Below are positions 1,739 through 30,509 of a DNA stretch of 48,383 nucleotides, piece after piece. The notes beneath the pieces were generated by a model that saw only the letters and a list, made by a program, of their open reading frames with translations, was not told the DNA's origin and made no database searches. Source of the DNA: Candidatus Eremiobacteraceae bacterium (lineage in GTDB: Bacteria; Vulcanimicrobiota; Vulcanimicrobiia; Eremiobacterales; Eremiobacteraceae); contig DASTCX010000038.1 of NCBI GenBank assembly GCA_035710745.1, positions 1-48,383 on the forward strand, written 5' to 3'. Both the position numbers and the translations under genes were made by a program. The first letter of the stretch is position 1. The number at the start of each line of letters is the position of its first letter.

Positions 1739-3463
1739 TCAGGTCGCATCGTTTCCTGCTTTCGCCAGGAGCATCGCTTCAAGCGTTGCCACGCGAGCGC
1801 GAAGAGCCGCCGCCTCGATGTGTCCGAACGCAGTCGCGGCGTTTCGCACGAGTGGCACAAGTGCGCGCTGCTCGTCCGGATCGATATCGGCACCGCTCCG
1901 ATGTGCGCCGTAGACAACGAAGCCGTCGAGCTCGCCACGCATCGTTACCGGAATCGCGAGCACGACGCTAGCCGTACCGTGCGACTCGCCGAAGACCGAA
2001 AGCGGCAACGAATCGAGCCGCACTGGTTGGTGCTCCGAACTCAGATAAAGCGGCAGAGCGTCGTTTCGGCCGACTGAGCCCGTAAGCGATACGAACTGCC
2101 CGGACGCAGCTGCTTTGGTGAAGGCGGCGCCGTCCATCCGGTAGACCGCTGCGCCGGTCAGTCGGAGCGCCTCTATCGGCAAGCGCACGAGCGTCTGTGA
2201 GACGGTGTCTTCGTCTGAAGCGTGGATGATGCCGTTAGCGCTGCGTTCGAGTTGCAGCTCCGCTCGATGGCGCTCGCGAAAGATCACTCGGTCGATGACA
2301 ACATCGACTCTGCGGTGCGCGGAATTGAGCGAGAAGCCGAGGAGGAGTGCGACGATGATGTCGATGCTCAGGCTTACGCGTGATTCTGCGAATGAGCGGG
2401 ACAAGACGGCATCGAGCAGCGAGAAGATCGCCACGAGCGAAACGGTGAGCACGCCGTAGACGAGCGTTCGGCTCACGACGAAATCGACATCGACGACGCG
2501 CTTCCGGAACATCGCATAGGCTGCCGTAAGCGGCAATACCGCCTGGATCGCGATCAGGCTCGCGTACGCGCCATACGAGAGGGGTCCTGGATAGAACCAA
2601 CCAGCGATATAGTGCGCCGGCACGACGATGAGCAATGCCGCGATCATCCATCGCAGGCGCTGGCGTGACGCGCCGTCATCGTGCCGATACGAATCGATGA
2701 GGCCGAGCAGCATCATGAACAACGCCAAGCCGGCAAAGGCGTCGACGATGCTCAGCCCTCGGTCCGATGCGGCGCCAAAAAGGACTTCCAGTAGTGTCGC
2801 CACGGCTGCGGCCGTGAATGTCGCAGCAATCGCCAGCCGCCGCCATGGCGTCCATGGTTGACCCGCAAAAGCGAACGCGAACAGCACGCCGCCGATGCCT
2901 GCAAGACTGAAAAATATCGAAAAGACGTACGAGTCCACGTTGAGGAGTATCGGGGGGATTACGTAATTGGAGACCGCCCCCGGCAGATTGATGACCATCA
3001 AGCTATAGAGAAAGAAGCCCCAAGTCGCTATCTCCGGTCGCGTCAGCAAGAGCGCGGCGGCAATGCCGATCGTCAAGAACGCGAGCACGAAGCGCAACGC
3101 AACAAAGGCCTGGACCGAAGCAGGCTCGGGGTCGGCGACGAGGGCGACCGTCCTCGTGCGACCGCCGCTCGTGACGGTTCCCGAGAGCTTGTCACCCGGG
3201 CTCCACGCCACACCTCGGATGACCGCGTAACGCGAAAGTCGTGTGGCGTCACCGAACGCTATGCGATCGCCGACGTGAAGCCCGGCTCGCTCGGCAGGCC
3301 CACCGCTGTCCACACGCGTTACGATCGTGCCCGTGGAATTGAACCCGTACTCGCCGAGCGGGAATCCGATGAAGCGCCGGATGTCGAGCGGAGAAAATCC
3401 GAGCGATAAGACGATCAGGACGATGACGACGACGAGACGTGATACCATGGAGAGTCGGAACAT
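1739..3463 (-). CDS. PDZ-membrane-GAF sensor-like protein, 574 aa
   Basis: Order of parts: a membrane helix at about 8-24; a periplasmic PDZ domain at about 40-115, with the loop GGPAERAGLHVGDRI typical of PDZ ligand-binding loops; seven to eight more hydrophobic helices at about 120-385; and a soluble GAF-like domain at about 400-560. There is no histidine kinase, GGDEF or phosphatase domain after the GAF, so if it is a sensor it lacks an obvious output module. The layout resembles the N-terminal sensory half of ComP-type kinases, which also combine PDZ and multi-helix membrane regions. The ligand is unknown. The start ATG at 3463 has only a distant AGGAG upstream; an ATG at 3448 is possible. 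The next gene upstream on the strand is 48 nt away. Confidence 0.75.
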   Translation of the reverse strand: MFRLSMVSRLVVVIVLIVLSLGFSPLDIRRFIGFPLGEYGFNSTGTIVTRVDSGGPAERAGLHVGDRIAFGDATRLSRYAVIRGVAWSPGDKLSGTVTSGGRTRTVALVADPEPASVQAFVALRFVLAFLTIGIAAALLLTRPEIATWGFFLYSLMVINLPGAVSNYVIPPILLNVDSYVFSIFFSLAGIGGVLFAFAFAGQPWTPWRRLAIAATFTAAAVATLLEVLFGAASDRGLSIVDAFAGLALFMMLLGLIDSYRHDDGASRQRLRWMIAALLIVVPAHYIAGWFYPGPLSYGAYASLIAIQAVLPLTAAYAMFRKRVVDVDFVVSRTLVYGVLTVSLVAIFSLLDAVLSRSFAESRVSLSIDIIVALLLGFSLNSAHRRVDVVIDRVIFRERHRAELQLERSANGIIHASDEDTVSQTLVRLPIEALRLTGAAVYRMDGAAFTKAAASGQFVSLTGSVGRNDALPLYLSSEHQPVRLDSLPLSVFGESHGTASVVLAIPVTMRGELDGFVVYGAHRSGADIDPDEQRALVPLVRNAATAFGHIEAAALRARVATLEAMLLAKAGNDAT

Positions 3464-3511
3464 GCGCCGCGTGTGCTCCTATAGAGCAAAAGGGGCTAGC
3501 AACGCCCGGGT

Positions 3512-8241: not shown

Positions 8242-9624
8242 TCAACCTTTTGCTTTTCCGATCGCGTCGGCGACCATCGCGTCTTGCGTCGCCGGATCTT
8301 TCCACCGCGCCTGGGCGTCTTTCGACAGCTGGTCGATCGGGTCGTAGTAGAGGAACCACTCGCCGGGCTTCACGCTCGGTGCGCTGTAAACGGCGATGCC
8401 GTTCTCGCGATCGTAGTAGTCGAACGAGTGGAGATCGCGCTTGCCGCCTCCGCCGGGTGCGTCGCACAGGAAGAGCGGCGTGTTGTAGCCGGCCGTCGAC
8501 CCGCGGACGAACTTCTCGATGTCGATCGCCGTCTGGATCGTCGTGCGCAGGTCTTCGACGCCCTTGACCATATCGTGCATGTACACGTAGTACGGATGGA
8601 CGTTGAGGTATCCGAGGCGCTTGACGAGCAGCCGCATCGTCTCTTTGTCATCGTTGACGCCGCGGATGAGCACCGACTGGTTGCGCACGAAGACGCCGCG
8701 CTCGAAGAGCAACCGCATCGCCTTCTCCGTGATCCACGTGATCTCGTTCGGGCTGTTGAAGTGCGTGTGGAGGACGACGTCCTTGCCCATCGTCCGTCCG
8801 CGGTCGACGACCGATATCAGCGCCTCGGTCCACGCATGGTCGGTGAGGATCTTGCTCGGCAGAATCGCCGGGCCTTTCGTCGCGAAGCGCATGCGCCGGA
8901 CGTTCGGGATGTCGAGCAGTGCGTCACCGATGCGCTTAAGGCTCTTCGCCGGCAGTTGGTACGTGTCGCCGCCGGAGATGACGATGTCCTGCAGCTCCGG
9001 CCGGGATGCGATGTAGTCGAACGCGTCTTGCCAGCGTTTTGGGTCGGTCGCGAGCTCCGCCTTTTCGACGACGTCGGTATCGCCGCCGATCGCATACGAG
9101 CGCGTGCAGAACCGGCAGTACACCGGGCAGACGTTCGTCGGCAAGAAGAGCGCTTTGTCGACGTAGCGATGGGTGAGGCCGGGCATCGGCGAGTCTTCGA
9201 GCTCGTGGAGCGAATCGAGAGACAGCTTAGGGTGATCGGGCAGCAGCCGCGACGCGAGCGGTATGAACTGCGTGCGGATGGGATCTTCATACGGATTGGC
9301 CCAGTCGATGAGCGCCATCGCATACGGCGACACGCGGACATTCATCGGCGCGCGATGGAAGCCGGTGCGGAGATCTTCAAGGAACTTGGGCGAGACGAGA
9401 TCTTGGACCGTATTGGCGAGCTCGTCGACCGTTTTCACCGAGTTGCGATACTGCCAGACGTGGTCCAGAAACGTCGGCTCGTCGATGTCTTTGTAAGCCG
9501 GTATCTTGCGCCAGAACTCTCCTTGCAGCAGCCGTTCGTGCTCGAGCGCCGACGGATCAGCCGGCGGTTTCACATGTCGGTGCGGTTCGGGCGCGTGGAT
9601 CTTCGAGATGTCGCTGATGGCCAT
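8242..9624 (-). CDS. kamA: Lysine 2,3-aminomutase family radical SAM enzyme, 460 aa
   Basis: The family interconverts L-alpha-lysine and L-beta-lysine using S-adenosylmethionine, a 4Fe-4S cluster and PLP. The cluster motif C166-x3-C170-x2-C173 (CPVYCRFC) is intact. The PLP-binding segment PGGGGK is present, with K395 the expected Schiff-base lysine, and ISGGDTY marks the SAM-binding strand. Length fits LAM (about 420-470) and is longer than EpmB-type EF-P mutases. The start ATG at 9622-9624 has a GAGGAAG Shine-Dalgarno; the open frame runs 39 codons further but reads as low-complexity Arg/Pro. It lies 43 nt after an Lrp-type regulator. No beta-lysine acetyltransferase (ablB) or lysine-fermentation gene is adjacent. 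A related aminomutase specificity, such as glutamate, cannot be excluded. Confidence 0.9.
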   Translation of the reverse strand: MAISDISKIHAPEPHRHVKPPADPSALEHERLLQGEFWRKIPAYKDIDEPTFLDHVWQYRNSVKTVDELANTVQDLVSPKFLEDLRTGFHRAPMNVRVSPYAMALIDWANPYEDPIRTQFIPLASRLLPDHPKLSLDSLHELEDSPMPGLTHRYVDKALFLPTNVCPVYCRFCTRSYAIGGDTDVVEKAELATDPKRWQDAFDYIASRPELQDIVISGGDTYQLPAKSLKRIGDALLDIPNVRRMRFATKGPAILPSKILTDHAWTEALISVVDRGRTMGKDVVLHTHFNSPNEITWITEKAMRLLFERGVFVRNQSVLIRGVNDDKETMRLLVKRLGYLNVHPYYVYMHDMVKGVEDLRTTIQTAIDIEKFVRGSTAGYNTPLFLCDAPGGGGKRDLHSFDYYDRENGIAVYSAPSVKPGEWFLYYDPIDQLSKDAQARWKDPATQDAMVADAIGKAKG

Positions 9625-13091: not shown

Positions 13092-13805
13092 TTACCTCGG
13101 GCGGACGGCGACGAATACGTCGCGGCCCCACTTGTCGCGAACGATCGTCGGCTCAAATCCTGTTTCGCGCAGCCATACCGTCCATTCGTCACGGCCGAAG
13201 AGCCCGTGGATGTGGCGTTCGTGTACGACGACGCGCGTGCCGTTGCGATCGCGCAGCAAGATCGCATAGTCGGTGACGCACGTCGAGTCGGTCGGGTCGG
13301 GATCATCATGCCACTCGATGTAGCGTAGTGCGCGGTCGCCATCGTCGTGGCCGCCCATGTCGGCGGATTTCTCGAAGGTTTCGCGGACATGGTCGGGGAC
13401 GAACAGAGAGACGCCACCCGGCTTCGTGTGCTCCCACGCTGTGCGCATTGCGGCTTTCAGATCCGCCTCGCTCGTCATGTAGCAGATCGCGTCGTGGACG
13501 AATACCGCATCGAACGCCCGGCCTAACCGAAGCGTGCGCATGTCGCCCTCGACATGTTCGCACTCAGGATTGATGAAGCGGCTGACGTCGAGCATCCCAG
13601 GCGCGATGTCGACGAGCGTCATCGAGCACGAAGCCTTCATGAACGAGGCGTTGTTCCCGCCGCCGCTACCCAACTCGAGCATCGTGCGCGGCGCGGGCGA
13701 AATCGTACGATCGAACAGGCTGCTGAAGAACGCCGCTTCTTCCTCATAGTCCGAAGGCTGCGAGAAAAGCGGCCACCACGGCGCGAGTTCATCGTATATC
13801 TTCAC
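13092..13805 (-). CDS. SAM-dependent methyltransferase, class I, 237 aa
   Basis: Rossmann-type methyltransferase. Motif I is MLELGSGGGNNA at about residue 42, the acidic motif II follows at LVDIAPGML, and the post-motif is FDAVFVHDAICYM. It opens with YDELAPWWPLFSQP, as in many small-molecule methyltransferases of the Methyltransf_25 group. The acceptor is unknown. The gene begins 4 nt after the stop of the beta-propeller lipoprotein gene on the same strand, so the two are probably co-transcribed. Confidence 0.88.
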   Translation of the reverse strand: MKIYDELAPWWPLFSQPSDYEEEAAFFSSLFDRTISPAPRTMLELGSGGGNNASFMKASCSMTLVDIAPGMLDVSRFINPECEHVEGDMRTLRLGRAFDAVFVHDAICYMTSEADLKAAMRTAWEHTKPGGVSLFVPDHVRETFEKSADMGGHDDGDRALRYIEWHDDPDPTDSTCVTDYAILLRDRNGTRVVVHERHIHGLFGRDEWTVWLRETGFEPTIVRDKWGRDVFVAVRPR

Positions 13806-13809
13806 GTTG

Positions 13810-15120
13810 TCACTTCACCGTGACCGGAATCGTGGTGCTGTTGCCTTTTTTGTCAGCGATCGTCAACATGCAGGTGCCATCTGATATCGCCACGACCGTG
13901 AATGTGTCAAGCGTCTTACCTTTGGTCACGTCGACGATCCCGTCGTCCGAGCTTTGCACTTTCCACTTCCCGGAGTACTTCTTCTCCGAGACCGTGATCT
14001 TCTGCGATGCGCCTGGTGCAGCGAGCGTCACCGACGCAGGCGTGACATCGATCTTCGATGCCAAGCGCACGAAGACCGCACCCTTACCGTTGAGCGACCC
14101 GCCAAACCACACGTCGCCGTTCGGCGTCACCGTCAGCGCTGTCGCGCGTGCAGTCGGTCCGCCCGGCAACGGGATCGTCGAGATTTGGCCGTCAAGTGCG
14201 ATCTCACCAAACGACGGAGTGCTATCGATAGTGAAGTCGAGCTTATCAGGCCCATCTGCGACGATGTCCCTAGGATTGCCGCGCACCGCGAAGGCCGTCA
14301 TCGATCCAGACGGCGTCACCCTGAGGATGTGACCATCGCGTTGCGCATCGTTAACGACGACCCACACATTACCGTCACCGCCGACCGTGAGCCGGAACGG
14401 AAGCCCCGATGTGTCGCGTACCGGATACTCGGTGATCGCGCCAGCCGGCGAGACCTTGCCGATGATGCCCCTGACTTGCGCCGATCTCGGCGGCGAATCG
14501 AACCCGCAAAACCAGACGTCGCCGCCCGGACCTGCTGCGATCGCTTCGCCTGCGTTCATGAGGTGCGGCTGATACTCGGTCGCGACACCGGTCGACGTGA
14601 TCTTCCCGATAGCGCCACCATCGCGAGCGACGAACCACAAGTTCCGGTCGGGCCCCAAGGCGAGACCGATCGCGTCCTTGTCCGGCCCGCCGATCGAAAA
14701 CTCCCTTATCGGTCCATCGGGCATCCGGATCTCGCCGATCTTCCCGAACCATTCGGATACCCACATGTCCCCCTTCGGCCCGGCAGCCACTGCGACCGCA
14801 CCCGCTATCTTACTCGGCATAGAGATCGTGTCGTACGAGCCGTCAAAGGCGACGCGCAGTACCGGCGCATCTACTCCGCCCGGTATCAGCCAGACGTGCG
14901 TTGAGAATCCGGCCGCGATGGCGAAAACCGGTTCGTCACCGAGCGAAGTGAACACGGCCCAACCTGGATACTCCGCGCTCGCCTGGACGGCGCGCGGTGC
15001 GGCCGATTTTTCGCGGCTGCGACCGGCGGGCGTCGATGATTTCGAGCAAGCGACAAGGCACGATGCCATCGCGACTATCGCGATTGTAATGTGGAGAGGT
15101 GATCTTTTCACGCTGTTCAT
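13810..15120 (-). CDS. Virginiamycin B lyase-like beta-propeller lipoprotein, 436 aa
   Basis: A signal peptide with a lipobox (LVAC) near residue 20 predicts a lipoprotein. Residues about 45-340 are Vgb/SMP-30-like propeller blades, recognisable by repeated GPDRNLWF, GPGGDVWF, GGDGNVWV and TPNGDVWF strands, each followed by IGKI/ITEY motifs. The C-terminal 90 residues (after ASKIDVTP) form an Ig-like domain. Such proteins are often annotated as streptogramin lyases, but most are of unknown function. The ATG at 15118-15120 is chosen because the signal peptide starts there; upstream in-frame codons read as Arg/Ser noise overlapping the DUF2784 gene. No strong Shine-Dalgarno is visible, which fits coupling with that upstream gene (8-nt gap). 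Confidence 0.85.
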   Translation of the reverse strand: MNSVKRSPLHITIAIVAMASCLVACSKSSTPAGRSREKSAAPRAVQASAEYPGWAVFTSLGDEPVFAIAAGFSTHVWLIPGGVDAPVLRVAFDGSYDTISMPSKIAGAVAVAAGPKGDMWVSEWFGKIGEIRMPDGPIREFSIGGPDKDAIGLALGPDRNLWFVARDGGAIGKITSTGVATEYQPHLMNAGEAIAAGPGGDVWFCGFDSPPRSAQVRGIIGKVSPAGAITEYPVRDTSGLPFRLTVGGDGNVWVVVNDAQRDGHILRVTPSGSMTAFAVRGNPRDIVADGPDKLDFTIDSTPSFGEIALDGQISTIPLPGGPTARATALTVTPNGDVWFGGSLNGKGAVFVRLASKIDVTPASVTLAAPGASQKITVSEKKYSGKWKVQSSDDGIVDVTKGKTLDTFTVVAISDGTCMLTIADKKGNSTTIPVTVK

Positions 15121-25253: not shown

Positions 25254-25709
25254 CTAGTGCACGATGATGACGATGCGCATCTCGTGCGAGTTGTAGTGGA
25301 ATTGGCATCCGAACATATAGAACCCGGGCATACCGGTCTCGTATATCAGCGACTTCTTCCCCGGGTTGATCGGTCCGGTCGCAAAGCCGGACGAACCGAT
25401 CGCGGTTCCCGCAGCCGACTGGGTCGTCGAGCCGTTGAATGAGCCAGGCCAAGGGGCCGAGTTCGACGTCGCGTCGCCGAGGAATGCCGCCGAGTGCTGT
25501 ATCGTATCCAGGTTCTGGAACTGTACCGACTCTCCGGCCGTCAAAAGAACGGTCTGCGTCTACGTACCCGTGCCGACCACGTTTGCGTGCCCTGGCACAC
25601 CGCGCAGGACCGGGGGACTAATGGAAAGATGACCCCGGTCATATGAAAAACGTCCGAGGCCGAATAGGTTGCCTTCGGCATCGCGAACGATGTGTCTCGA
25701 CTCCGGATT
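25254..25709 (-). pseudogene. Broken cupredoxin gene with an in-frame stop and no 5' end
   Basis: The last 100 codons encode a cupredoxin C-terminus (QHSAAFLGDAT, PGKKSLIYETGMPGFYMFGC, FHYNSHEMR) closely similar to the intact protein at 29946-30509. The same frame stays open upstream to 25709, except for a TAG at 25560-25562, just before TQTVLLTAGESVQF. It then runs into a stop 3 nt before the tRNA-Thr gene. No signal peptide and no ATG precede the TAG. A TTG at 25544 could start a fragment, but that would lack the signal and first strands. I read this as a decayed paralogue whose 5' end was lost at the tRNA. Confidence 0.7.
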
Positions 25710-25714
25710 TCAGA

Positions 25715-25787
25715 AGCCGACGGAGGGACTTGAACCCCCGACCAGCGGTTTACAAAACCGCCGCTCTACCAACTGAGCTACGTCGGC
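25715..25787 (-). tRNA. tRNA-Thr (anticodon TGT)
   Basis: Complete cloverleaf: acceptor GCCGACG/CGTCGGC, D-arm GCTC/GAGC, anticodon stem GCGGT/ACCGC with loop TTTGTAA, and T-arm GGGGG/CCCTC around TTCAAGT. Nucleotides -3 to 38 are duplicated at 29447-29487, so the 5' half, and with it the promoter region, now belongs to the integrated island. The gene reads ACA/ACG codons. Confidence 0.95.
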
Positions 25788-25790
25788 GCA
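25750..25790. repeat. Attachment repeat (att), left copy, 41 bp
   Basis: Identical to 29447-29487. It covers three bases upstream of tRNA-Thr(TGT) and tRNA nucleotides 1-38, ending at the 3' edge of the anticodon loop. This is the core of the island's integration site. Confidence 0.85.
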
Positions 25791-25864
25791 TTCGCTGAGT
25801 GCCTTATTTGGTGCGGGTTTGGCGAAATCCGCCCCTCTCCTATCGATGCGAAACGTCGGTTCGC

Positions 25865-25881
25865 GGTCACGGTTAGGTCAC
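25865..25881 (+). promoter_or_regulatory. Candidate integrase arm-site pair, left end
   Basis: GGTCAC at 25865-25870 and again at 25876-25881, direct, with starts 11 bp apart, 75 bp inside the left att repeat. The same pair with the same spacing lies inside the right end (29324-29340). Confidence 0.45.
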
Positions 25882-25923
25882 AGACAAATTCCACCTGGGC
25901 TGATCTTGCTAGGGTATGCCGCT

Positions 25924-26060
25924 TCACGAGACGCCGCCAAGTGCTCGCTGGATCGCCAGCGCGGCGGTATCTTCCGCAGACGGAATATGATGGGCGTAGA
26001 CGTTCAGGGTTGTCGTTGTATTGCTATGACCGAGGTTAGCCGAAACCGTTGTGACCGGCA
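25924..26060 (-). pseudogene. Tyrosine recombinase (integrase), C-terminal fragment, 44 codons
   Basis: The minus strand reads PVTTVSANLGHSNTTTTLNV, then YAHHIPSAEDTAA, and ends LGGVS-stop. This is the last catalytic block of phage-type integrases: the LGH motif and, 11 residues after the H, the nucleophile tyrosine (LNVY). Everything upstream is gone: the frame stops at the end of the IS3 element (26061), and the sequence beyond the other IS end (27257 on) does not continue it. Its 3' end points at the intact tRNA, as integrase genes usually lie next to their att site. Confidence 0.85.
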
Positions 26061-26077
26061 TGACCTGAGGCGGGGTT

Positions 26078-26929
26078 TCAGGCAGCTGGTTCCTGTGATG
26101 GGTTGATCAATAGGGTATCCGCGAACTCCTTGGGTGTACGACCTCTGAGCGAACTATTCGGCCGGACTTCGTTGTAATCGGTCAGCAATTCCGCCGCTGC
26201 GTTGCGAGCCTGATCGAGCGTCAAGAACGAATGAATGTTGAGGAACTCGTCTCGGGCTTTTCCGTTAAGTGATTCGACGTGCGCGTTCCGGATCGGCTTA
26301 CCGGGATCGATGAAGTGCAGCTCGATTCGTTGTTCGGCTCCCCAGGAGAGCATCGTGTGGCTGGTGAGCTCTGCGCCGTTGTCAAAACGCAGCGTTCGCG
26401 GCAAGCCACGCACGAAGCCGATCCGTTCGAGCACCGCGATGACCCGACGGCTATCAAAGCCGCGCTCCACCTCGGTTGCCAAGCATTCTCTGGTGTAGTC
26501 GTCGACGATCACGAGTACGCGTAGTCGCCGTCCACTCGCCAGCGTATCGTGCATGTAATCGAGCGACCAACGCTCGTTGGGCGCGTGGACCGGAGCGATG
26601 GCGTTGCCGCGCACGTAGCGCACCTTGCGTTTCTTACGCGGCCGTACTTGCAGCCCAAGACCCCGATAAATGCGGCGGAAGCGATACTCGCCGACGCCGT
26701 CGTACTCGCGTCGCAGCACGATCAAGAGGCGCCGCCAACCCCAGCGCGGCCGCTGGGTCGCAAGCTCTTGCAGGCGACTCGCGATCGGCTCATCCGCCCT
26801 CGGCTTGCGACGGTAGTACAGGTTGCTGCGCGCGTAGCCCGCGAGCGTGCACGCGCGCAGCGCCGAGATCCCCCGGGTCTGCAAGGCTCTCACCGCGTCT
26901 TGCCGCTGCGAGAGCCCCAACCGTTTTTT
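26078..26929 (-). CDS. IS3-family transposase OrfB (DDE integrase core)
   Basis: Produced as an OrfAB fusion by -1 frameshifting at 26923-26929. It has the rve integrase core with the three acidic residues in WSLDYMHD, LRFDNGAE and ESLNGKARDE, and the N-terminal HTH_21 region ALRACTLAGYARSNLYYRR. It ends with SLRGRTPKEFADT, the usual tail. The frame is uninterrupted, so the element could still be active. The frame is open further upstream to 27064, but that part overlaps orfA and is not coding. Confidence 0.92.
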   Translation of the reverse strand, partial: KKRLGLSQRQDAVRALQTRGISALRACTLAGYARSNLYYRRKPRADEPIASRLQELATQRPRWGWRRLLIVLRREYDGVGEYRFRRIYRGLGLQVRPRKKRKVRYVRGNAIAPVHAPNERWSLDYMHDTLASGRRLRVLVIVDDYTRECLATEVERGFDSRRVIAVLERIGFVRGLPRTLRFDNGAELTSHTMLSWGAEQRIELHFIDPGKPIRNAHVESLNGKARDEFLNIHSFLTLDQARNAAAELLTDYNEVRPNSSLRGRTPKEFADTLLINPSQEPAA

Positions 26930-27183
26930 TGGATCAACTCCCGCATCGCCTCGACTTCGAGCGTCAGCCGAGCGATGACGCGGTCTTTGCGATGGGCTTC
27001 GTCTTCGAGCTGTTTGAGACGCACGAGATCGCTCGTCTCGAGGCCGGCGTATTTGGCGCGCCACGCCCCAATCGTGTTCGGATGGACGCCGTGCTTGCGG
27101 CCCAGCTCGGTCGCGGTCGCGCCGGCGTCGAGTTCCTTAAGGATCGAGACGATCTGCGATTCGGTGAAGCGGCTCTTCTTCAC
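26890..27183 (-). CDS. IS3-family transposase OrfA, 97 aa
   Basis: A helix-turn-helix protein (MKKSRFTESQIVSILKELDA, then RKHGVHPNTIGAWRAKY) with a C-terminal leucine-zipper-like coil (VRLKQLEDEAHRKDRVIARL). It binds the IS ends and is the N-terminal part of the OrfAB transposase. The ATG at 27183 has GGAG upstream. The frame continues 11 codons past the slippery site and stops. Confidence 0.92.
   Translation of the reverse strand: MKKSRFTESQIVSILKELDAGATATELGRKHGVHPNTIGAWRAKYAGLETSDLVRLKQLEDEAHRKDRVIARLTLEVEAMRELIQKNGWGSRSGKTR
26923..26929 (-). promoter_or_regulatory. Programmed -1 frameshift site A AAA AAC
   Basis: In the OrfA frame the minus strand reads CAA AAA AAC GGT. The heptamer A AAA AAC is a canonical slippery sequence, and slipping back one base gives AAA AAA CGG TTG, the OrfB frame. 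OrfA ends at 26890 and OrfB is open from here, so the site explains how the fusion transposase is made. Confidence 0.8.
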
Positions 27184-27398
27184 GTGAGTCTCCTTGGCGG
27201 GCCTTACGCCCGAGAACTCACAGCTTCCGCCTGTCCGAAATCACCGCCTCAGGTCACAAGGAACTGGCATAACACCCACTCGTCATAAGAGTAAGGAGTA
27301 GCAGCGGTACACGAGTTCTCATTGCTTTTGATCTCAACGGCAATTTAGAAGGGCCCGCTGACCCGAGATGTTCTCGATGTCCACGGTCGCGTCCGCTT

Positions 27399-27917
27399 TT
27401 AGAACGTGATCGTGCCCGACCAGTGATCGGTGTATGTGCCGTTACTACTGTTGCACGTAAAGGCGACGGTTCCGCTGCCCGTCGCGTTCACGAACTTTCC
27501 GGTTCCGCTTATCACGGTGAACATCACCTTTTGTCCAAACCGGGGCGCGCAAGGTGTACCGGTTTGGAATCCCCTGAGGCTTAGGCCCATCGTGATTGAA
27601 TTCTGCGGATGGAATTTACTCGTCAGGATTGTCTGGCCGCTCCAATTGCACCCCGAATGGACATCACCACGAAGAGAACCGCTTTCCGTGCTCTTGCGAA
27701 TGAATGACCCAAAGCCGACTCCGGTGTATCTGAAAGAGCCATCTCCGTCGGGCGGATTGCAGACTCTTAGGCTCTGGCTACCCGAATAAGTCGCGCTAAA
27801 GGCTCCGCCGCGCTGTTGTACGGAAAGCGTGACGGTTTGCAAATGAGTCGGAACACTCGGGACCGCGGCGCATCCCACAAGCACTAACAATGCTACCGCC
27901 GAAATCAAACGTCTCAT
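27399..27917 (-). CDS. Island lipoprotein paralogue 1, 172 aa
   Basis: A signal peptide with lipobox LVGC (MRRLISAVALLVLVGC) predicts a lipid-anchored exported protein. The mature domain is beta-rich, with the pattern shared by all three island copies: GGAFSATYSG, a C-x-PPDG segment, GSFI-x-x-STESGS, HP-x-NSI, then SGTGKFVNATGSGTVAFTC and a terminal GTYTDHWSGTITF. The G-T-G-x-F-x-x-A-x-G-x-G motif recalls AOC-barrel/dirigent-like beta-barrels, but I cannot assign a family. ATG at 27915-27917 with GGAGGGC upstream. Third gene of the cluster in transcription order, 14 nt after paralogue 2. Confidence 0.78.
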   Translation of the reverse strand: MRRLISAVALLVLVGCAAVPSVPTHLQTVTLSVQQRGGAFSATYSGSQSLRVCNPPDGDGSFRYTGVGFGSFIRKSTESGSLRGDVHSGCNWSGQTILTSKFHPQNSITMGLSLRGFQTGTPCAPRFGQKVMFTVISGTGKFVNATGSGTVAFTCNSSNGTYTDHWSGTITF

Positions 27918-27931
27918 ATCGCCCTCCAAAT

Positions 27932-28456
27932 TCAGAACGTAATCGTGCCCGACCATTGGTCGGTATAGGTACCGTTGCTCTTACAGGTGAACTTCACGGT
28001 CCCACTACCAGTCGCGTTCGCGAATCTTCCTGTGCCGCTAACAATAGTGAACTTCACGGTGTGACCGAAGTCTGGATGGCAGGGCGTATTATCCTGGCCA
28101 GTGCCGGACCCCATGAGGAACAGGCTCACCTTCACTGAGTTCCGCGGATGTAGCGAGTTCCTAAGCGTAGTGGTCCCGCTCAATGAGCAGGCTCCATGTA
28201 CGTTTCCGACCGCCGAACCGTTTTCGGTACTGGCATGGATGAACGCGCCAGAGCCCGAGCCATTGAATCCGAAGCTGCCGAATCCGTCAGGCGGAGCGCA
28301 TGCTCTCAGCGTGAACGTGCCTGAGTAGCTCGCGCTAAAGGCTCCGCCACTCGCCTTGATCGCGGCACCGTGCGGTTGCGCATGAATCGGAATATTCGGC
28401 ATGGCGGAGCACCCCACAAGAGCCAATATTGCGATTGCAAAAATCGAGCGCATCAT
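27932..28456 (-). CDS. Island lipoprotein paralogue 2, 174 aa
   Basis: Same architecture as its neighbours: signal peptide with lipobox LVGC, then GGAFSASYSGTFTLRACAPP, GSGSGAFIHASTENGS, HPRNSVKVSL, DFGHTVKFTIVSGTGRF and the C-terminal GTYTDQWSGTITF. Four cysteines of the mature part align with those of paralogue 1 and may form disulfides. Two ATGs in tandem at 28456 and 28453 follow a GAGGACGGA. The middle gene of three; 88 nt separate it from paralogue 3. Confidence 0.78.
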   Translation of the reverse strand: MMRSIFAIAILALVGCSAMPNIPIHAQPHGAAIKASGGAFSASYSGTFTLRACAPPDGFGSFGFNGSGSGAFIHASTENGSAVGNVHGACSLSGTTTLRNSLHPRNSVKVSLFLMGSGTGQDNTPCHPDFGHTVKFTIVSGTGRFANATGSGTVKFTCKSNGTYTDQWSGTITF

Positions 28457-28544
28457 TCCGTCCTCACGTTTCTTGAAAAAGTCGAGTTCGGGGAAAGGCA
28501 ATCAGCCTGGACCGAGCCGTTGACTACCTTGGCTGGACGCGGTT

Positions 28545-29039
28545 TCAGAAGTTTAACGATCCACTCCAACTGTCGGTGTACGTCCCATCGGCCTTGCAAC
28601 TAAAGGTAATATGGCCCCCGCCGCTCGCGCGCTTAAATCTTCCAGTCCCTCCGCCAACGGTGTAAAAAAGGCCACTGCCACGGAGGTCGCATATTTGAGT
28701 TGTTCCGGTCAAATAAACTAGAATGCTGTTGCCCGGATAAAGTATACTCGTCAGAGTTGCCTTGCCTCTCAGATTGCAGTTGAATCCCGTCGCCCACTGA
28801 ACTGAGCCGACCTCCGTGCTGCGGCGAAGGAACGAAGCCGATCCCTTCCCGGTGAAGCTGATTTTCTGGTTCTCGAAGCAGAATTCTCCGTTGGTCTCGG
28901 TGCCCGCATACGTTGCGCTAAAGGCCCCGCCGTTATTGCGTGACGCGGATCCCACTGGTTGCAAATGAGTCGGAACACTGGGAACCGCGGCGCATCCCGC
29001 AAGCAGCAATACGGCAACAGCGGAAATCAGACGTATCAT
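28545..29039 (-). CDS. Island lipoprotein paralogue 3, 164 aa
   Basis: The most diverged copy. Its signal peptide and first mature residues (MIRLISAVAVLLLAGCAAVP, then SVPTHLQPV) are nearly those of paralogue 1, but the central PPDG segment is replaced by ETNGEFCFENQKISFTGKG and the loop before GTGRF is shorter. The ending GTYTDSWSGSLNF is retained. ATG at 29037-29039 with GAGGGCGAAA upstream. First in transcription order; the 407 bases before it must hold the promoter of the cluster, although I see no convincing -35/-10 pair. Rapid divergence between tandem copies suggests variable surface or effector-like proteins; that is inference. Confidence 0.78.
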   Translation of the reverse strand: MIRLISAVAVLLLAGCAAVPSVPTHLQPVGSASRNNGGAFSATYAGTETNGEFCFENQKISFTGKGSASFLRRSTEVGSVQWATGFNCNLRGKATLTSILYPGNSILVYLTGTTQICDLRGSGLFYTVGGGTGRFKRASGGGHITFSCKADGTYTDSWSGSLNF

Positions 29040-29319
29040 TTTCGCCCTCGCTCGTTCACGACAATACCGAACTCGGGCGCAAGGTTGCTTGTCGCAATCA
29101 AAACCTTTCGCCGGTTTTTTGGGCGTTCTGCGAGCGTTCGATGCTGCCTCTTCCACTCCGCGAGACTCGAACAATGGGAGCCTGAAGGCCCAGGTCCATC
29201 TGTGCGGTCCTAGCCCTGCGCCCGATCGCGCCGACCAGTCGCTCGCCAAAAACATCACGCGATAAGAACCGCCGGGGGTCCCAAAACTTCGCGCTCGTCG
29301 AAAACCCCCGGTCCCCTTA

Positions 29320-29341
29320 CCGAGGTCACGCCGAGGTCACG
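29320..29341 (+). promoter_or_regulatory. Candidate integrase arm-site pair, right end
   Basis: CCGAGGTCACG twice in direct tandem (29320-29330 and 29331-29341). The shared GGTCAC cores have starts at 29324 and 29335, 11 bp apart, the same orientation and spacing as the pair inside the left end. The pair is 106 bp from the right att repeat. Confidence 0.45.
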
Positions 29342-29402
29342 TCCGTTGCCTGACATCCGATGTTGTCGGCTGACATGACGACGCGATCACGCTAAAAAGA
29401 AA

Positions 29403-29431
29403 ACACCCCGCCACTTAAAGTAACGGGGTGT
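29403..29431 (-). terminator. Rho-independent terminator behind the split tRNA half
   Basis: On the minus strand ACACCCCG pairs with CGGGGTGT (8 bp, 13-nt loop that itself pairs in part) and is followed by TTTCTTTTT. It lies 15 nt downstream of the tRNA-Thr half-copy at 29447-29487, so it would stop transcription from the original tRNA promoter before it enters the island. Confidence 0.75.
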
Positions 29432-29446
29432 CAGCGTCTTGACGAA

Positions 29447-29487
29447 TTACAAAACCGCCGCTCTACCAACTGAGCTACGTCGGCGCA
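29447..29487 (-). repeat. Attachment repeat (att), right copy: 5' half of tRNA-Thr(TGT)
   Basis: 41 bp identical to 25750-25790. It holds tRNA nucleotides 1-38 plus three upstream bases and ends at the anticodon loop; the 3' half is absent, so it cannot make a tRNA. The DNA to its right (29488-29593) is then the original upstream region of the chromosomal tRNA gene. Confidence 0.85.
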
Positions 29488-29593
29488 GACCTTGGAACAT
29501 ATTGGACGAAGGCGCTCGGCTCCCCGCTGACAGCGCGACCAAGCGACTGTCGGTCGTCTGAGATCGTGTTAGAACGGGCAACTCTTTAGCGCT

Positions 29594-29827
29594 ATGATCA
29601 AGACGCATTGGCGACGGACTGTCGCCGCTATCGGGCTTTCAGCTACATTGATCCTCTCCGCGGTCGCCGCGACGCATTCGCGAAACGACGCCTACCAAAT
29701 GCCGGCAGCACCTGAGTCGCCGATGCCGACCTTCACCGTCATGCCGACAGGCAGCGCAAAACCATCGCCGCGTCCGAGCGCTAGCCCGCGCAAGTCGCCG
29801 ACGCCTTCGCCCACGCCGACTTTTTAG
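29594..29827 (+). CDS. Small secreted Pro/Ser-rich protein, 77 aa
   Basis: An N-terminal signal sequence (MIKTHWRRTVAAIGLSATLI, then LSAVAATHS) is followed by a low-complexity tail of P-S-P-T-P repeats ending PTPTF. No cysteine is present. The tail has no fold I recognise and may be an extended linker at the cell surface. The Shine-Dalgarno is weak. Downstream come a GCCGAGC-TTC-GCTCGGC hairpin (29850-29866) and a terminator. Confidence 0.55.
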   Translation: MIKTHWRRTVAAIGLSATLILSAVAATHSRNDAYQMPAAPESPMPTFTVMPTGSAKPSPRPSASPRKSPTPSPTPTF

Positions 29828-29945: not shown

Positions 29946-30509
29946 TTATTTGACGATGATCACCGTACGCATGCCGTTCGAGTTATAGTGGAACGCGCAG
30001 CCGACCATGTAGAAGCCGGGCATACCGGTATTGTAGATGACGGACTTCGTGCCCGGATTGAGAGCGCCGGTGCTGAAGTTTACCGTTCCGATCGCGGTGC
30101 CGGCCGGCGACTTCGTCGAGCTGCCGTTGAAAAGCTGCGGCCATGGCGCCATGTTCCGCGTTGCGTCGCCCAAGAAGCTCAGCGTGTGAGGCCGGACCGT
30201 GTCGACGTTGAAGAAATGGACCGACGTCGCGGCGGGAAGCGAGATGACTTCAGACGTCGTCGAGGTCTTGCCCTTGAAGTAGCCGAGCACGACGCCGTAC
30301 CTCGGGCTCGTAAACGGCGCTTCGCCGGTCAAACGGATGCCGACCGCTATTGCCGACGTCGAAATGTCGACGCCGTCTTCGTTAAATCCGACGTTCATGA
30401 CATTCTGCGATGGCGCCGGAACGATCGGCGACGACGCCGAGGAACCGTGTGCGCTGCATCCGGCCAATAGCAGCGCCGCGAGGACGAACGAACCGACCGC
30501 GTACTTCAT
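29946..30509 (-). CDS. Cupredoxin-like lipoprotein, 187 aa
   Basis: A signal peptide with lipobox LAGC (MKYAVGSFVLAALLLAGC) predicts lipid anchoring. The mature C-terminal half is a cupredoxin: the first copper ligand is in RPHTLSFLGDAT, and the ligand loop is C-x2-H-x5-M in GCAFHYNSNGM. The upstream part (about 30-100) is an Ig-like or linker region, NEDGVDISTSAIAVGIRLTG. It is a paralogue of the broken gene at 25254-25709 on the other side of the island. The ATG at 30507-30509 is chosen from the signal peptide. Likely copper-dependent electron carrier or copper chaperone at the outer face; the partner is unknown. Confidence 0.82.
   Translation of the reverse strand: MKYAVGSFVLAALLLAGCSAHGSSASSPIVPAPSQNVMNVGFNEDGVDISTSAIAVGIRLTGEAPFTSPRYGVVLGYFKGKTSTTSEVISLPAATSVHFFNVDTVRPHTLSFLGDATRNMAPWPQLFNGSSTKSPAGTAIGTVNFSTGALNPGTKSVIYNTGMPGFYMVGCAFHYNSNGMRTVIIVK

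Follow-up and report, generated by a model that had tools for sequence, protein, structure and literature searches.

Islands that carry a fragment of the 5' part of a tRNA gene (tDNA) are a recorded minority, accounting for 159 of the 3919 islands (4.1%) described in Islander (PMC4383910). In archaea, the pTN3 and TKV4 integrases use the tRNA 5' half as chromosomal attachment site (attB), and the restored tRNA is described as cut off from its original promoter (PMC8371274, PMC5495485); according to a review, a similar 5'-half situation is seldom met in bacteria (PMC8371274). Cluster J mycobacteriophages are described as having their own attachment site (attP) 3' of int, the core lying ~100 bp from the end of that gene and being flanked by pairs of direct repeats, putatively of arm type (PMC3706429). 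In tRNA-dependent lysogeny, as reported, the phage supplies a whole tRNA and the host tRNA is left unrebuilt (PMC10865867). Here, we analyzed a window of 48,383 nucleotides, the entire contig C38 of a 41-contig metagenome-assembled genome (hereafter G000) of Candidatus Eremiobacterota, with a focus on the DNA lying on the 5' side of its tRNA-Thr(TGT) gene. This DNA is very probably a decayed integrative island, whose integrase recombined tRNA-Thr(TGT) with an attP carrying the 5' half of the gene and thereby exchanged transcription units.

The window contains a single intact tRNA-Thr(TGT) gene and, 3.7 kb of island DNA away, a second copy of its 5' half:

25715-25787, minus strand: intact (restored) tRNA-Thr(TGT), called by both ARAGORN and Rfam and recovered by the repeat search.
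29447-29487, minus strand: second repeat copy, a displaced 5' half covering positions -3 to 38 of tRNA-Thr(TGT), from the repeat search and alignment.

The two copies form a perfect 41-bp repeat spanning tRNA positions -3 to 38. The left one (25750-25790) lies within the intact gene and the right one is a bare 5' half. Even when as many as 3 mismatches were tolerated, exactly two copies were counted in the window (shuffle mean 0.00, 100 shuffles), and identity stopped directly past the anticodon loop. The initial annotation had described this repeat, with the intact gene at one island end, the half at the other and the island on the 5' side of the tRNA, and the coordinates, the arrangement and the position of the intervening DNA all agreed with it; it had made no mention of the integrase remnant, the paired GTGACC boxes, the IS3-like insertion or the terminator described below. 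Searched against its own genome, the gene had itself as sole full-length exact match, the next best being tRNA-Thr(CGT) on contig C18 (85%). By analogy with the sister elements described below, we read the 5' half of the restored gene as island-derived and its 3' half as chromosomal.

What lies next to the tRNA pointed to an integrase:

25924-26060, minus strand: C-terminal remnant of a tyrosine integrase, C-terminus toward the tRNA 5' end with a gap of ~140 bp, from alignment to relatives.
25865-25881, minus strand: integrase-side tandem GTGACC-N5-GTGACC, putatively of arm type, whose start precedes the tRNA 5' end by 94 bp, from the motif search.
29324-29340, minus strand: distal tandem GTGACC-N5-GTGACC, putatively of arm type, from the motif search.

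The remnant comprises the last ~44 residues and is 67% identical to an integrase piece in the congener G001. Its kinship was established by alignment to relatives, and those of them that were tested match PF00589. The GTGACC-N5-GTGACC motif occurred exactly twice in the 48,383 bp (expected 0.00), once near each island end and both times just inside a 5'-half repeat copy. The same pair was found at both ends of two other elements, in tRNA-Thr(CGT) of G001 and in tRNA-Lys(TTT) of G035. Moreover, a pair starting 91-95 bp from the tRNA was present in 7 of 25 gaps between a tRNA and an integrase facing its 5' end, as against 0 of 31 gaps of 3'-facing integrases and 0 of 70 random 160-bp windows. 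Because cluster J mycobacteriophages are described with paired direct repeats flanking the core (PMC3706429), we read the GTGACC pairs as arm-type sites that the integrase may bind. The locus shows what is expected of a tRNA island, namely an intact tRNA and a fragment of the same tRNA as terminal direct repeats, an integrase next to the att site, as a remnant only (25924-26060), and, at the level of sequence, arm-type-like repeats on both sides of the core. We read the 3.7-kb segment as what is left of an integrative genomic island.

Two sister elements had identifiable empty sites. The first one (L090, in tRNA-Thr(CGT) of G001) carries an identical 5' half (positions 0 to 38) displaced by 3.6 kb from the whole gene, together with a similar terminator and an integrase remnant. 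Its empty site is found in the window genome itself, where the whole tRNA-Thr(CGT) on C18 adjoins the matching flank. Indeed, L090 506-553 (98%) and 397-467 (82%) match C18 just upstream of the whole gene, L090 4125-5693 aligns to the gene plus its 3' side (91%), and ~38 bp beside tRNA-Thr(CGT) that are absent from G000 represent an indel. The second element (L162), whose integrase looks full-length, belongs to G035, from a second genus, and shows the order His, displaced half, 9-kb island, Lys(TTT), Lys(CTT), the split being inside Lys(TTT). A contiguous His-Lys(TTT)-Lys(CTT) cluster, found in the congeners G081 and G038, provides the empty sites. Among the seven congeners searched, His and Lys(TTT) were adjacent in these two, in G078 (at a contig end) and in G040 (with a second Lys(TTT)-Lys(CTT) pair ~2 kb off); they were separated by ~1.8 kb in G060 and ~4 kb in G093, and no Lys was found within 1.5 kb of His in G044. 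The His-Lys spacing was 1-2 bases in G081 and G038, and therefore Lys is likely transcribed with His in these genomes; after integration of L162, the downstream tRNAs would start from island DNA. Judged by sequence comparison, these empty sites identify the 5' half as the part of the tRNA gene that islands of this type replace. By extension from them, the initial claim that the island in the window replaces the 5' half is supported as well.

Two copies might also arise if recombination or an insertion sequence (IS) simply duplicated the 5' half of the tRNA, independently of any integrase, and as a matter of fact an IS3-like element lies inside the island while the integrase is only fragmentary. 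We consider this most unlikely, given that the repeat ends at the anticodon loop, that the integrase C-terminus and the paired boxes are placed where att arms belong, that a displaced 5' half beyond a 5'-facing integrase recurs in relatives at tRNA-Thr(CGT), Lys, Ile, Val, Pro and Met, and that empty sites are known for the two sister elements. Another scenario would be a classical 3'-half island that lost its far end, with the right-hand half contributed by a second element or by a rearrangement. It draws on G001, wherein a 3'-half copy (positions 32-75, L046 8859-8905) on the other side indicates that the gene has been struck from both sides. Yet, the window holds no copy of the 3' half of tRNA-Thr(TGT), and the integrase remnant and the boxes sit on the 5' side, with the boxes just inside the 5'-half copies, which makes this scenario very unlikely. 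On the same observations, a classical island restoring the 3' half was rejected as a type for the locus.

The G001 locus (L046, on contig C73) showed further peculiarities. The 3'-half copy is 4.6 kb downstream of tRNA-Thr(TGT), and an integrase lies on the 5' side of the same tRNA (locus 13401-13878), such that both halves of the working TGT gene of G001 may be element-derived. By eye, the 3'-side island has tandem GTTGGCAA-type repeats of its own near both ends (L046 ~9010-9040 and ~13305-13335).

We evaluated how often integrases face the 5' end of a tRNA. Integrase matches were sought in 61 genomes, at least 52 of which had one, and were ranked by similarity to the 5'-class integrase, hence a sample biased toward that class. 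From the matches listed, 85 loci were chosen, all of which were included. With a tRNA at most 700 bp from the integrase C-terminus, 25 integrases faced the 5' end and 33 the 3' end, the window included. A matching distal 5' half was found in 6 of the 25 (the window, L090 Thr, L132 Met, L162 Lys, L182 Val and L183 Ile) and a matching distal 3' part in 6 of the 33 (L097, L103, L114, L127, L133 and L172), many stretches ending at contig ends. Inclusion of more upstream DNA revealed a seventh 5' half (G006 Pro, positions 1-43, 100%), and in G010 a 5' half was present with no integrase match on the stretch examined. The 5' and 3' classes both meet at the anticodon loop: the last tRNA position in the repeats of the 5' class is 38-43, and the first one in the anticodon-type repeats of the 3' class is 30-33. 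Some copies disagreed with the side on which the nearby integrase lies: besides the 3' half of the G001 TGT gene on the other side, there was a copy of tRNA-Arg 33-73 upstream in L162, and tRNA-SeC of G019 (L189) had partial copies of both ends. The tRNA-Pro of G006 (L126/L143) had integrases on both sides.

A less biased sample was taken from PF00589 matches in 14 genomes, most of them selected because their assemblies have few contigs. Of its 56 matches, 40 were examined; the other 16, all among the 17 best-scoring and probably Xer-type, were left out. Six of the 40 faced a tRNA 5' end, 11 a 3' end and 23 were without a nearby tRNA. The share of 5'-facing integrases was 5/7 in the family of the window and 1/10 elsewhere (p 0.035). 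The ratio of 6 in 17 tRNA-adjacent integrases differed from the Islander figure (Fisher p 4e-5), a comparison of two different measures, integrase side and fragment, so that the excess in Eremiobacterota is indicative. The geometry had initially been called uncommon, which holds globally and fails within Eremiobacterota.

The side was also followed on an integrase tree. The careful tree retained 52 of 56 labeled rows, after four long-branched rows, three of them 5', had been dropped. The window remnant grouped with seven others, all 5', in a clade of eight (support 100/99), also recovered in a quick tree of 85 rows. All eight members are incomplete, that is, frameshifted, truncated or ended by a contig end. 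The 21 5' rows required 7 changes of side (bootstrap 5-95% range 6-8), the shuffled mean being 16.7 with 0 of 500 shuffles as low; the starred branches alone force only 2 side changes. A single origin of the 5' side was rejected, as it appeared in 0% of 200 bootstrap trees and the careful tree had those 7 changes.

The transcriptional context of the two copies involved three further features:

29402-29432, minus strand: intrinsic terminator that begins 15 bases past the displaced 5' half, read in the direction in which the half would be transcribed, from scan and fold.
25788-25840, minus strand: presumed promoter of the restored tRNA, in the island DNA that precedes it, proposed from a CCAAATAAGGC stretch.
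29488-29593, minus strand: native upstream flank, presumed native promoter, which would now feed the 5' half only, proposed from the sequence.

The terminator hairpin has 14 pairs and a T-rich tail (-22.1 kcal/mol, z -6.5). A similar terminator lies behind the L090 half (z -5.7) and a weaker one behind that of L050 (z -3.1), the latter missed by the scan and recovered by folding. The CCAAATAAGGC stretch is common to the window island and the G001 CGT element. Because island DNA lies upstream of the gene and the native flank upstream of the half, we infer that the intact tRNA is now transcribed from island DNA and that the native promoter drives a dead half. The idea that displaced halves are generally followed by a terminator was rejected, as the scan was positive in only 3 of 8 elements (the window, L090 and L162). 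Duplication of the promoter together with the half, considered for the Met and Val elements, was likewise discarded: the Met-flank homolog in G035 (C34:7707-8092) overlaps an integrase match (C34:7936-8100), and a tandem array is suspected there.

The right-hand half and its terminator might instead be a retained small-RNA gene, encoding a 5' tRNA half, whose link to the island would be secondary. This would fit the identity of the half to the gene despite the decayed integrase and the recurrence of half plus terminator in L090 and L050. However, the L050 half has mismatches, and identity in the window may reflect recency, so we hold this idea extremely unlikely. A bolder proposal retains the integrative island and sees in it a lineage of Eremiobacterota integrases for which 5'-half capture is a stable rule, with an attP forming a self-contained promoter-half-terminator unit and an orphaned native promoter making a terminated, maybe retained, 5'-half RNA. 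We regard this as tentative and, on balance, doubtful. If true, an essential tRNA, or a run of downstream tRNAs, would pass under island control by a clean swap of transcription units.

Several observations weighed against a 5'-half integrative island. Among the matches listed for 101 relatives, no empty site was found at the TGT locus, and only G001, whose own tRNA-Thr(TGT) likewise adjoins an integrase of this kind, aligned along the right flank, from 29535. There, the G001 contig has 2.1 kb of differing DNA before the alignment point, and no distal TGT half was seen in this congener. The ~44-residue integrase remnant had no Pfam match of its own. Perfect 7-mer tandems of any sequence occurred in 15 of 25 5'-facing gaps, 14 of 31 3'-facing gaps and 5 of 70 random windows; as they are similarly frequent in both classes, paired repeats per se do not mark the side, and only the GTGACC sequence is tied to the 5' side. 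The terminator scan was negative in 5 of the 8 elements, and a terminator is supported only in the window and L090 and, less strongly, in L050; the hairpin of the Lys element L162 was no better than shuffles (z -0.19), and terminator-like sites were not enriched in 25600-29700 (7, shuffles 4.7, standard deviation 2.3). Last, a search for a sigma-70 consensus promoter at the island end found none.

Taken with these points, the mechanism that we propose is as follows. A tyrosine integrase would recombine the anticodon-loop region of tRNA-Thr(TGT) with an attP bearing the 5' half instead of the usual 3' half, the near-symmetric anticodon stem-loop being what could let an integrase rebuild either half. 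In this attP, the 5' half would be on the integrase-proximal side, and the order in the tRNA direction would be integrase C-terminus, GTGACC pair, promoter-like stretch, 5' half to position 38, terminator and GTGACC pair. The crossover probably fell within positions 32-38. Integration would then swap transcription units, placing island DNA in front of the complete tRNA and leaving the native upstream region to lead into a 5' half that ends in the island terminator. Later, an IS3-like insertion and loss of the N-terminal part would have shortened the integrase.

The remainder of the island was as follows:

26061-27256, minus strand: IS3-like insertion truncating the integrase remnant, with transposase open reading frames (ORFs) at 26890-27183 and 26078-27064 (Pfam HTH_Tnp_1, rve).
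27399-27956, 27932-28501 and 28545-29258, minus strand: cargo of three mutually similar small ORFs, lipoprotein-like by eye (ORF list, Pfam).

No integrase sequence beyond 25924-26060 was found by tblastn of the window; the integrase is thus truncated, while an active mobile element would have a complete one. Because it was cut by the IS3-like insertion and its N-terminal part was lost, the island is probably fixed. The IS3-like element has imperfect end repeats (TGACCTGAGGCGG...) and no target duplication, its ends being judged by eye, and a similar end sequence is present in the G001 Thr(CGT) island (L090 ~3462-3500). The three cargo ORFs had no Pfam match. Outside the island, 25261-25484 and 29953-30176, which flank it on opposite sides, are 72% identical, and relatives of these stretches recur elsewhere in the genome and in other genomes. 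In five relatives of the same family (G005, G006, G009, G010 and G012), tRNA-Thr(TGT) is flanked, within about 0.1-7.5 kb, by homologs of the window genes located at 8.3-10.2 kb and at 35.75 kb; in the window itself, much of the 25 kb separating these genes (10200-35750) is variable DNA around the tRNA, partly common to G001.

The 5'-side geometry is already known and rare, and appears unusually common in the little-studied Eremiobacterota, for which our literature search found no report of it. New with respect to the literature found are its frequency in this phylum, an all-5' integrase clade, the recurrent changes of side and the layout of the attP, in which a terminator follows the half and boxes stand at either end. 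With about one third of sampled tRNA-adjacent integrases facing the 5' end and repeated switches, natural pairs are at hand for studying site flipping. They raise the questions of whether the symmetry of the anticodon loop permits flips, and of what it costs the host to cede a tRNA promoter to an element.

Compared with known systems, the locus resembles the 5' cases described in Islander, wherein a tyrosine integrase splits the tRNA, the 5' fragment is displaced upstream and the whole gene is restored; these make up 4.1% as counted by fragments, whereas the Eremiobacterota have 6/17 by integrase side plus one all-5' clade of eight (PMC4383910). With pTN3 and TKV4 as described, it shares a 5'-half attB and the separation of tRNA and promoter, the promoter swap being presumed here. 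However, their integrase gene is disrupted on integration, whereas in the window the att site is outside the integrase gene, the tRNA lying ~140 bp past the integrase stop with boxes and a terminator, and a pTN3-type integrase was rejected on that account. The likeness to cluster J mycobacteriophages resides in an attP on the 3' side of int and a core flanked by paired putative arm-type repeats; in contrast to what is reported for them, the window island uses the 5' half of a tRNA (PMC3706429). Finally, as in tRNA-dependent lysogeny as reported, the element in the window would take over the supply of an essential host tRNA, with the difference that the phage brings a whole tRNA whereas here the gene is rebuilt half and half (PMC10865867).

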